From: Gammaproteobacteria bacterium
Lineage (GTDB): Bacteria; Pseudomonadota; Gammaproteobacteria; JAKEHO01
Length of the DNA: 64,000 bases
NCBI GenBank assembly: GCA_027296625.1
Contig: JAPUIX010000107.1
Coordinates: 1-64,000 of the forward strand
Direction: 5' to 3'
A model generated the notes under the pieces. That model saw nothing but the letters and a program-made list of their open reading frames with translations. It did not search any database and was not told the DNA's origin. Of the stretch, positions 57,848-63,671 are shown piece by piece. Made by a program: the position numbers and the translations under genes. The first letter of the stretch is position 1; each line of letters opens with the position of its first letter.

Positions 57848-58729
57848 TCAGTTACGAATGACCCCTAACATCGCTGCCATGACCCGCACCTTCTCGCGTA
57901 ATGATTGGCGGGGTGGATCAGCTGCGTTGTGATGTAACACCAAGAGCGTTTGATCGTCCTCTGCCGGGCGCCCAGACCGGTAAGCTGTCACACTCTCAAG
58001 TACCATGTGGCTGATCTTATCCGGCTCGGCCACATTCAATTCGCTAACCAACGCGAGTAATCCCTGTTCGCCGAGCGGCTGGCCATTCAGATTGGTCGCA
58101 TCCGTTAGCGCATCGGTGTATATCAGCACGAGATCACCCTTATCCAATTTCACCGCAAATTGCACATAATCGGTGGGCTCAATCACACCCAGTGGCAGGT
58201 TGACCGTGGTTTCGGGCTCTTGTAGCACAGCGTGGTCCAACAGCTCCCAACTTTGGGAACGGGCGCGGTACCATAGCGGCCGTGGATGGCCGGCATTGCA
58301 GATAATGAGGTGATCGGTGGGGGCAAAATACGTGGTTAGTAGGACCGTGGCAAAAGCGCCGGCTTTGCTGAGCTTGGAAAACTCTTGATTAAGCGCTTGA
58401 GCAAATCGGGTTTGGTCGAGCGTATTGATGTGCTTTCGCATGAGTTTGCGAAGTCGCAAAGCAAGCGCCCCAACGCCCGCGCCGTGACCAGCGATGTCGG
58501 CGACAGCAAAACGGGAGATCTTACCCGCCCCGCACATGGATATGTAATGGAGATCGCCGCCTTCGAGGTTCCCCTCAAACGGCTCCGCGAAGATCCAGGC
58601 ATCGATCCCCGGTACCGAAAAGGCGTTATTGATCCGTTGGTTGCCGCCCCAGACCTCCATGCACTGAAGGGAATGTACGGTGGGGCCTTGGTGTGTGACA
58701 GATCGCATTAGCGAATGAGGGGAACGCAT
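57848..58729 (-). CDS. SpoIIE/RsbU-type protein phosphatase
   Basis: The 293-residue protein is a PP2C-like phosphatase with an N-terminal M-E-V-W-G-G-N segment and the SpoIIE core. Metal-binding motifs are seen: G-G-D-L-H-Y near 57, V-A-D-I-A-G-H-G near 78, N-A-G-H-P-R-P-L-W near 144 and Y-T-D-A-L-T-D-A near 220. It has no fused receiver or PAS domain, so a partner must supply the input. No anti-sigma factor or anti-anti-sigma gene lies beside it. It is divergent from the FAD oxidoreductase gene. Confidence 0.87.
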   Translation of the reverse strand: MRSPHSLMRSVTHQGPTVHSLQCMEVWGGNQRINNAFSVPGIDAWIFAEPFEGNLEGGDLHYISMCGAGKISRFAVADIAGHGAGVGALALRLRKLMRKHINTLDQTRFAQALNQEFSKLSKAGAFATVLLTTYFAPTDHLIICNAGHPRPLWYRARSQSWELLDHAVLQEPETTVNLPLGVIEPTDYVQFAVKLDKGDLVLIYTDALTDATNLNGQPLGEQGLLALVSELNVAEPDKISHMVLESVTAYRSGRPAEDDQTLLVLHHNAADPPRQSLREKVRVMAAMLGVIRN

Positions 58730-58915: not shown

Positions 58916-60295
58916 ATGGCAGAAAGATACGATGCGATTATCATCGGTGCCGGTCAGTCTGGGCCGTCGCTGGCCGCCAGATTAACACAGGAGGGGCTGA
59001 AGGCGGCTATCATTGAACGCAAGCTTTTCGGTGGTACCTGCGTAAATGTCGGTTGTATCCCCACCAAGACCTTGGTAGCAAGTGCCCGTGCCGCTTATGT
59101 CGCGCGCCGTGGCGCGGATTTTGGCGTCATAATCAACGGGGCAATCGAAGTTGACATGAAACGAGTCAAGACGCGCAAGGATGGGGTGGTACGGGAGTCC
59201 AATGAGGGCGTCGCAACGTGGCTGAAGACCATGACTAACCTCACGGTGTACGAGGGTCATGCACGATTTGAAAGTCCCAACACGGTCCGGGTCAATGGAC
59301 AATTGCTCGAGGCTGAATGGATATTCATCAACGTTGGGGCAAGGGCTTTTATTCCAGACATGCCGGGACTGAATGAAATTGATTATCTGACCAACTCGAG
59401 CATGATGGAAGTCGATTTTATACCGGAGCATTTGCTCGTTATTGGCGGGAGTTATATTGGGTTGGAGTTTGCCCAAATGTATCGCCGCTTCGGCAGTCGG
59501 GTTACGGTCGTGGAAAAGAGAGAGCATCTGATTGCACGTGACGACGAGGACATATCCGAAGCGGTTAAGGAGATCCTAGAACACGAAGGCATCGATATCC
59601 GCCTTAATGCGGACTGTATCAGGGTAGAAAAACGCGGCGATGGGGTGGCAGTTGGGCTCTCTAGAGAAGGGCGCTCAGAAGCAATCGTCGGATCCCACCT
59701 CCTGCTAGCGGTCGGTCGCCGCCCCAATACCGATGACTTGGGTCTTAAGGAGGCGGGTATTGAGACAGACGAACGGGGGTTTATCGTGGTGGATGACTAT
59801 CTAAAGACTAACATACCTGCTGTTTGGGTAACGGGTGATGCAAACGGTCGCGGCGCGTTTACCCATACTTCGTACAATGACTACGAAACTCTCGCTGCCA
59901 ATCTCTTCGATAATGATCACCGACGGGTGAGCGACCGCATTACCGCCTACGCGCTCTACATCGACCCGCCCCTTGGGCGCGCCGGCATGACAGAACGTGA
60001 AGTACGAGTATCGGGACGCAAGGCGGTTATTGGCAAGATGATGATGAACCGCGTCGGTCGCGCTAAAGAGCGCAGTGAAACCCAGGGATTTATGAAGATA
60101 TTGATCGATGCGGAGACTGAGAGAATCCTTGGAGCAGCGATTCTAGGCATCGGCGGTGACGAGATCATCCATTCCGTGCTGGATGTGATGTACGCCGACG
60201 CGCCTTATACAGTAATTCAACGTGCGATGCACATCCATCCCACCGTGACGGAACTGATTCCGACTATGCTGGGTGATCTTAAGCCCTTGCAGTAA
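58916..60295 (+). CDS. Flavin-dependent pyridine nucleotide-disulfide oxidoreductase
   Basis: The 459-residue protein has the FAD motif G-A-G-Q-S-G at the N-terminus, the redox pair C-V-N-V-G-C (near 41-46), an NAD(P) fold with G-G-S-Y-I-G-L-E, the T-G-D-A-N-G segment, and the C-terminal H-I-H-P-T-V-T-E-L active site. It resembles MerA-like class I enzymes but lacks the C-terminal vicinal cysteines and any heavy-metal domain, so mercuric reductase is unlikely. The substrate is unknown. CAGGAGGGG is a strong ribosome site. Confidence 0.88.
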   Translation: MAERYDAIIIGAGQSGPSLAARLTQEGLKAAIIERKLFGGTCVNVGCIPTKTLVASARAAYVARRGADFGVIINGAIEVDMKRVKTRKDGVVRESNEGVATWLKTMTNLTVYEGHARFESPNTVRVNGQLLEAEWIFINVGARAFIPDMPGLNEIDYLTNSSMMEVDFIPEHLLVIGGSYIGLEFAQMYRRFGSRVTVVEKREHLIARDDEDISEAVKEILEHEGIDIRLNADCIRVEKRGDGVAVGLSREGRSEAIVGSHLLLAVGRRPNTDDLGLKEAGIETDERGFIVVDDYLKTNIPAVWVTGDANGRGAFTHTSYNDYETLAANLFDNDHRRVSDRITAYALYIDPPLGRAGMTEREVRVSGRKAVIGKMMMNRVGRAKERSETQGFMKILIDAETERILGAAILGIGGDEIIHSVLDVMYADAPYTVIQRAMHIHPTVTELIPTMLGDLKPLQ

Positions 60296-61824: not shown

Positions 61825-62214
61825 CTACTGTTCATGGCGAGTACGTTGATCTTTTTCGCCCCATACAAATTGAAGGCGTGGACCGAGATCAATACGAATG
61901 TGCCCTGAGATGAACCGTGCAGGGAACAGATCAGTACCGACCATATATACGAGAATCATAGCAAAACACATGCCCACGTAGACGAATACGAGGGGGAACA
62001 AATACCACGTTCCTAGTCTCGCCATGTCCAGCAATAAGGCCAAGCTGCTATAGACGCCTAGTAATATCACGAGATAGGCCGGAACCTTCCAAAGCCACTG
62101 GATCAGACTGCTACTTTTCGCGGCTGACTTTGCACCCGTTGAATGAACCCACAGTTTAATTAAGTAACTTGCGGCCACCAGCGCAGAGATATATATCCAA
62201 GTTTGTAAGAACAC
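61825..62214 (-). CDS. Small membrane protein of unknown function
   Basis: The 129-residue protein has about three hydrophobic segments, near 5-24, 42-63 and 69-94, and a hydrophilic C-terminal tail. No family is recognised. It is divergent from the GGDEF gene. The ATG at 62214 has no strong ribosome site. Confidence 0.55.
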   Translation of the reverse strand: MFLQTWIYISALVAASYLIKLWVHSTGAKSAAKSSSLIQWLWKVPAYLVILLGVYSSLALLLDMARLGTWYLFPLVFVYVGMCFAMILVYMVGTDLFPARFISGHIRIDLGPRLQFVWGEKDQRTRHEQ

Positions 62215-62600
62215 GGTTTAGCCCCCCAAGATCAAGTGAAGATATCTGTTTAAGCATAGTCGCTAAACCAGTGCGTTGCTATAACCGTGGCGCACAAGCA
62301 GGGCTCTTTAAGCTCATGTGAGATCGGTGAAATGGATGGTCGACGTAAGATGTGCTATCTCGCATCGTACGGAGACAACTTTATAATTTTCCATCAGGGA
62401 GACATTATGAGCAGTTTCGGATCTCAGACTGCATTGAAAACTGATCTATCCTGTCTAATACTTAACTTTAGCTTCTTGGAGTCGCGAGACCTTGGAACTA
62501 ATCGAGGCTGGTATCTATAAAAATATAATCTAAGGAAGGTACCCGGCAACTGCCAGCTTGAATCGTTTTGGCTACATACGTTGGATGATATATCTGGAGT
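62215..62600. other. Non-coding gap upstream of the Rossmann-GGDEF gene
   Basis: The gap between two divergent genes is A/T-rich in places. TATAAT occurs at 62524-62529, but no -35 at standard spacing is seen. A small frame at 62407-62520 (37 codons) has a GGGAG five bases ahead but no homology is recognisable; it is not called as a gene. Confidence 0.45.
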
Positions 62601-62603
62601 GTG

Positions 62604-63671
62604 ATGAAGAGAAATCCGTACAAGATGAGTCGGAAGTCGATTACTCAAGACGCGGTTAAGGTTGGGATCATTGGCGCCGGCAGGGGAGGATACGGATTGC
62701 TGCGGGTCCTAAAAGATATCCCCGAAGTCGTGGTCGTTGGGATTTGCGATGTTAACCCTGCTGCGCCCGGTTTCACTGAAGCAAAACAGTTATCCATCCC
62801 TACATATTTAGATCTTGAAGTGATGTTGCGCGAGCAGCCTATGCACTGGTTGATTAATGTTACGCATAAGTCCCTCACCCAACGCCATATTTTGAGCCAG
62901 GCGCTTAACGATGTGACGGTAATCGATGGACATATTGCTGAATTGATTTGGCTTATTCTTTCGACCATCTACAATCAGATCCATCTTGACGAAGCGAACA
63001 AGCGGTCCTCGCAAAAACATATAAAGGTCCTGTACATGTTGGCGTGGGATATTATTCGGCAGGTTGTTAATGTTGGACAACCACTCCAAACTGAGTTGGC
63101 AAATATCGCTTTCCAAGATCCGCTGACTGGTCTGTATAGTCGGCGTATCTTTATACAATTTTTAAATCGAGAAATCAGTGGTGCGATCCGTCATGGGCAG
63201 CCGCTCGCTTTGGCGATTATTGATATTGATTATTTCAAGTCTGTCAACGACCGATTCGGACATGATTCAGGGGATCAAGTATTGAGAGAATTTGCGGAAC
63301 TTCTTGACGACTCGCATCGAAGGAGCGACTTAGTGGCGCGCTACGGAGGAGAAGAGTTTATCGCCGTACTTCCAAACACCAATATTGAAGCGGCATGCAT
63401 CTGGGCAGAACAGTTCCGGAAACGGATTGAGACAAGGTTACGGACGCCAGAAGGGTCACCTATAACAGTGAGCATTGGTGTTGCGACTTATGATCCGGAC
63501 TCTGATCCAGCGAGTGCGCAGAAAGTTGAGGGTACCGCGATCCCGGATATTAAAAAAGCGCTGTTGGGGAACGCTGATCAGGCTCTGTACGAAGCCAAGG
63601 GGAGCGGGAGGAATCGAATTACGGCTTTTTCACCTGCAACAGGGAGGACAGGCCGAAGTCTCAAGAATTAG
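62604..63671 (+). CDS. Rossmann-domain diguanylate cyclase (GGDEF) fusion
   Basis: The 355-residue protein joins two domains. The N-terminal part (about 18-128) is a NAD(P)-binding-like Rossmann fold: V-G-I-I-G-A-G-R-G-G-Y-G is the glycine-rich turn, and an Asp follows the second strand (G-I-C-D-V-N-P), suggesting preference for NAD over NADP. A helical linker (about 130-165) leads to a GGDEF domain with D-P-L-T-G-L-Y-S-R-R, I-D-I-D-Y-F-K, the active motif G-G-E-E-F at about 248-252 and an RxxD I-site (R-R-S-D) exactly five residues ahead. The catalytic and product-inhibition sites are thus intact. No membrane helix is seen, so it is cytoplasmic. GTG 62601 is an alternative start. Confidence 0.85.
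   Translation: MKRNPYKMSRKSITQDAVKVGIIGAGRGGYGLLRVLKDIPEVVVVGICDVNPAAPGFTEAKQLSIPTYLDLEVMLREQPMHWLINVTHKSLTQRHILSQALNDVTVIDGHIAELIWLILSTIYNQIHLDEANKRSSQKHIKVLYMLAWDIIRQVVNVGQPLQTELANIAFQDPLTGLYSRRIFIQFLNREISGAIRHGQPLALAIIDIDYFKSVNDRFGHDSGDQVLREFAELLDDSHRRSDLVARYGGEEFIAVLPNTNIEAACIWAEQFRKRIETRLRTPEGSPITVSIGVATYDPDSDPASAQKVEGTAIPDIKKALLGNADQALYEAKGSGRNRITAFSPATGRTGRSLKN

Follow-up and report, generated by a model that had tools for sequence, protein, structure and literature searches.

What signal could reach a diguanylate cyclase through an N-terminal domain that looks like the NAD-binding part of an oxidoreductase? This question is raised by an open reading frame at 62601-63671 (+ strand, stop codon included) of the window, which is the whole 64,000-nucleotide stretch of gammaproteobacterial DNA analyzed here, and the frame was found exactly as the initial annotation had described it. 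A GGAG sequence at 62596-62599 lies 4 nt ahead of an in-frame ATG at 62604, and the ortholog in L002, the single other genome that we found for this genus, starts at the equivalent Met. Because of this spacing and the start of the ortholog, the GTG at 62601 is unlikely to be the true start and translation probably begins at ATG 62604, giving a protein of about 355 aa.

Domain organization and the cyclase domain

The protein consists of a Rossmann domain, a linker and a GGDEF domain. Judged by its hydropathy the protein is soluble, since the highest Kyte-Doolittle mean over 19 residues was 1.60, in a stretch that includes D, H and E, and no transmembrane segment was evident in such 19-residue windows. 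The linker covers residues about 107-169 (62919-63107, +) and would be helical, with helices at 110-133 and 138-158 seen in low-confidence models only.

The GGDEF domain occupies residues 170-339 (63108-63617, +) and matched PF00990 (E = 5.2e-43) over its full length, profile positions 1-161 of 161, as well as the NCBIfam model TIGR00254 (1.9e-47), which together with PleD and SiaD was among the best NCBIfam models for this part. Both functional sites lie within 63318-63359 (+). The active-site loop GGEEF (residues 249-253) fits the GG[DE]EF pattern, and RRSD (residues 240-243), five residues ahead of the GGDEF motif, corresponds to the RxxD inhibitory site. Thus, the initial annotation was right to describe an intact GGDEF domain with both sites complete and a protein free of membrane segments, and the gene product is predicted to be a c-di-GMP-making enzyme. 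The source genome contains 8 GGDEF, 4 EAL and 5 PilZ matches, and therefore a c-di-GMP network is present for this protein to feed. The complete domain, the GGEEF loop and the RxxD site are shared with soluble cyclases of the PleD and SiaD type, whereas the input is a Rossmann domain here instead of a REC, PAS, GAF or membrane sensor.

The N-terminal Rossmann domain and its likely ligand

The N-terminal domain covers residues about 19-110 (62655-62930, +) according to the Pfam match (residues 19-98) and the family alignment. The glycine-rich turn and the acidic residue after strand 2, both pointed out in the initial annotation, are indeed present: the GxGxxG turn is GAGRGG at residues 25-30 (62673-62690, +), and Asp50 ends strand 2 within CDVNPAAPG (62745-62771, +). 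Pfam placed the domain in GFO_IDH_MocA (PF01408) with 24.2-25.7 bits (24.2 in the full protein), which is marginal against the cut-off of 24 bits; the orthologs in L002 and in L063, a genome of another family, scored 27.3 and 29.0 bits, respectively. The match to the Gfo/Idh/MocA oxidoreductases is, however, limited to profile residues 1-79, their C-terminal substrate-binding domain was absent from the Pfam results, with residue 110 running into the linker and GGDEF domain, and the EKP motif after strand 5 is absent from the window protein. Single-sequence AlphaFold2 models had low confidence (pLDDT 46 and 41); their order of alternating strands and helices is consistent with a Rossmann domain, and Foldseek found no significant fold match from them. 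Pantothenate synthetase and HDAC, which Foldseek listed, were rejected as noise arising from these poor models.

Conservation was determined in an alignment of 29 diverse N-terminal domains taken from different genomes, where G25, L34, D50 and A61 were invariant and G27 (28/29), G29, G30 and A55 (each 27/29) nearly so. The strand-4 motif INVTH (62853-62867, +), which reads DVTG in most relatives, includes T88, a position occupied by Thr in 25 and by Ser in 3 of the 29. The combination of GxGxxG with an Asp that never varies after strand 2 is the classical signature of NAD rather than NADP binding, while Rossmann domains can also bind other nucleotides, or nothing. Since this signature is kept and a catalytic domain is absent, NAD(H) is the probable ligand.

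Pfam and NCBIfam, which group the C-terminal domain with active diguanylate cyclases, group the N-terminal one with NAD-binding families, and comparison with solved structures is likewise compatible with this assignment. When the family profile was searched against the PDB, the best matches were the NAD domains of acylating acetaldehyde dehydrogenases (E 1e-7), followed more weakly by an NAD-dependent dehydrogenase and by the NADH-sensing repressor Rex (E 0.003). The DmpF-type acylating acetaldehyde dehydrogenases (1nvm_B, 4lrs) are the closest solved sequences and share the motif region around strand 2, but in the present family the N-terminal domain passes into a linker to signaling outputs and is not followed by a catalytic or CoA-binding domain. 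Rex offers a functional analogy, as a non-catalytic Rossmann domain that controls an output domain; its output is DNA binding, however, the sequence relation is weak, and no Rex-type winged helix appeared in the Pfam results for the window protein.

An unlikely alternative is that the sensor recognizes a different ligand, which could be NADP(H), a CoA ester, a metabolite or a nucleotide acting as second messenger. The acylating dehydrogenases, among which the nearest solved relatives are found, also handle CoA, and the family is distinct: the window domain is about 20-35% identical to most relatives, and the members have motifs of their own (NPxAPG after Asp50, DVTG and DG..A.LLW) that as a set are not common to any single NAD enzyme family. 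This reading has to accommodate the invariant strand-2 Asp with GxGxxG, that is, the classical NAD signature. The domain might also be a degenerate scaffold for dimerization or protein-protein contact that is free of ligand control; the missing catalytic part, the linker helices, which could serve as a dimer stalk, and the altered glycine motifs of two members (GGSGGG in L083 and GGGAEG in L084) would suit such a role. We regard it as quite improbable, because a role as pure scaffold does not call for G25, D50, G27 and G30 to be almost constant in 29 diverse proteins with several outputs. A ligand-binding Rossmann domain, most likely for NAD(H), is therefore the reading pursued below.

Recurrence of the domain and its fusions

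The Pfam score is marginal and the oxidoreductase domain only partial, as might be expected if a fragment of an oxidoreductase had been joined to a cyclase by chance or recently and had no functional meaning. This explanation is very hard to reconcile with the distribution of the protein. A protein with the same domains and 79% identity is kept in the sister genome L002, and the same short architecture occurs in L063 and L075, genomes of other families, with 44-49% identity in the N-terminal domain; the four proteins form one clade with support of 100/99. Homologs with the same domain order thus exist, and because both the domain and the fusion recur in many genomes, the fusion of Rossmann and GGDEF domains is real and goes beyond chance.

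At E ≤ 1e-7, the family profile had matches in 108 of the 399 genomes sampled from the phylum; the weakest matches may be ordinary dehydrogenases. The domain is joined directly to GGDEF in the window, L002, L063, L075, L073 and L086. In other proteins, further domains intervene: GAF-GGDEF follows in L003, PAS-GGDEF in L088 (by Pfam) and L090 (by sequence), and a middle region that has no Pfam match precedes GGDEF in L004, which L036, L064 and L072 resemble in length and sequence. Other outputs are found as well, namely three PAS domains with a histidine kinase (L057), GAF-HisKA-HATPase-REC-REC-GGDEF (L082) and the MCP signaling domain (L083 by Pfam, L084 by sequence). In the tree, considering the fully read rows, the short GGDEF fusion appears in two separate places, the type of the window and that of L073 and L086; the label 'GAF-GGDEF' was the default for rows lacking a full protein reading, so that counts for this group are unreliable. 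Many genomes of family f207 carry 2-4 copies of the Rossmann domain.

The two MCP-type proteins (L083:858-1511, − and L084:677-1324, −) are soluble, about 215 aa long, and consist of the Rossmann domain and a truncated MCP signaling domain; they are possibly cytoplasmic chemotaxis-type sensors. Stand-alone relatives of about 110-180 aa, which have no catalytic domain, were also found (L038:1450-1917, −; L040:1447-1983, −; L042:1522-1899, +; L047:1459-1926, −), and the gene in L038 adjoins those of a FixJ-type response regulator and a histidine kinase.

Pfam assigned the members variously to GFO_IDH_MocA, NAD_binding_3, DapB_N and others, and did not detect the N-terminal domains of L004, L057, L075 and L088 at E ≤ 0.01. 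From these inconsistent assignments and the four undetected domains, we conclude that the Pfam copy used holds no dedicated model for the family, and none was found in NCBIfam either. Scans of genome contigs with a single protein or a four-row alignment gave no relatives, the PHROGs scan with the N-terminal domain was empty, viral contigs gave GGDEF matches only and no relative of the N-terminal domain, a plasmid search with the N-terminal domain of a relative gave no match, and the sole match of the DNA search covered 6% of the gene, within the GGDEF part.

The recurrence bears on what the initial annotation had proposed, an NAD-binding-like Rossmann domain as the input of a diguanylate cyclase. 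The domain calls uphold this part, but its wider reading has to be revised: the module recurs on several output types and is no one-off fusion to c-di-GMP synthesis. The N-terminal domain is read as a ligand sensor because it lacks a substrate or catalytic domain and its outputs vary, and its repeated fusion to GGDEF, GAF-GGDEF, PAS-GGDEF, PAS-histidine kinase, GAF-histidine kinase-REC-REC-GGDEF and MCP signaling domains fits a sensor.

Candidate function and genomic context

Given the GxGxxG and Asp signature, we favor, with some reserve, a diguanylate cyclase of the cytosolic, one-component kind that receives its input from a Rossmann domain reduced to its cofactor-binding part, the signal most likely being NAD(H) or a nucleotide related to it. 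The mechanism that we infer, in ligand identity, dimerization and direction of control alike, would start with binding of this ligand to the Rossmann domain. Binding would alter the geometry of the dimer or linker, acting through the helical linker, and this change would turn the GGDEF dimer on or off, while the c-di-GMP product would inhibit the cyclase at the RxxD site. The same Rossmann module also serves as the input of histidine kinases and of MCP-type proteins.

A match of the N-terminal domain to a GGDEF input family of described function would have counted against the initial annotation, but Pfam, NCBIfam and the literature open to searching yielded no such family; in open-access literature, no description of a Rossmann or Gfo/Idh/MocA input to GGDEF was found. 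Redox is known to reach c-di-GMP networks indirectly, through sensors based on flavin-PAS domains, haem or disulfides (PMC8846402, PMC12540587), and the main text of these two reviews does not mention a Rossmann input. The flavin-PAS redox proteins AxDGC2 and RmcA, a DGC/PDE group (PMC12540587, PMC8846402), would likewise tie c-di-GMP to reducing power, with FAD in a PAS domain in their case and a Rossmann domain here. The nearest topic found was BdcA, reported as an NADPH-binding SDR in biofilm dispersal (PMC4171110).

What emerges is a seemingly widespread and undescribed sensor, which may monitor the NAD or redox state of the cell. More specifically, but tentatively, the Rossmann inputs could form a family, so far without a name and spread through the phylum, that senses NAD(H) on c-di-GMP cyclases, histidine kinases and MCP-type proteins, so that bacteria could read their NAD redox state directly in several signaling pathways. 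Such an input would provide a direct and different route from the NAD(H) level to the decision between sessile and motile life. Because the module is also found on histidine kinases and MCP-type proteins, one ligand assignment would annotate many sensors across the phylum.

The neighborhood of the gene was compared using gene names assigned by eye from sequence. Outside the genus, no conserved partner gene was found when the neighborhood in L063 was compared, the genes around the fusion there being different from those of the window. Within the genus, the order is kept in the sister genome: queA, tgt, the Rossmann-GGDEF gene, a divergent gene for a 129-aa membrane protein, a LOG-family protein, a disulfide oxidoreductase and a SpoIIE-like phosphatase, with a few additional genes separating queA from the ortholog in L002. 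The divergent neighbor (61825-62214, −) encodes a hydrophobic protein and stays beside the ortholog. The SpoIIE-like phosphatase-type protein is encoded at 57848-58729 (−), near the disulfide oxidoreductase gene (58916-60295), and both are kept in the sister genome.
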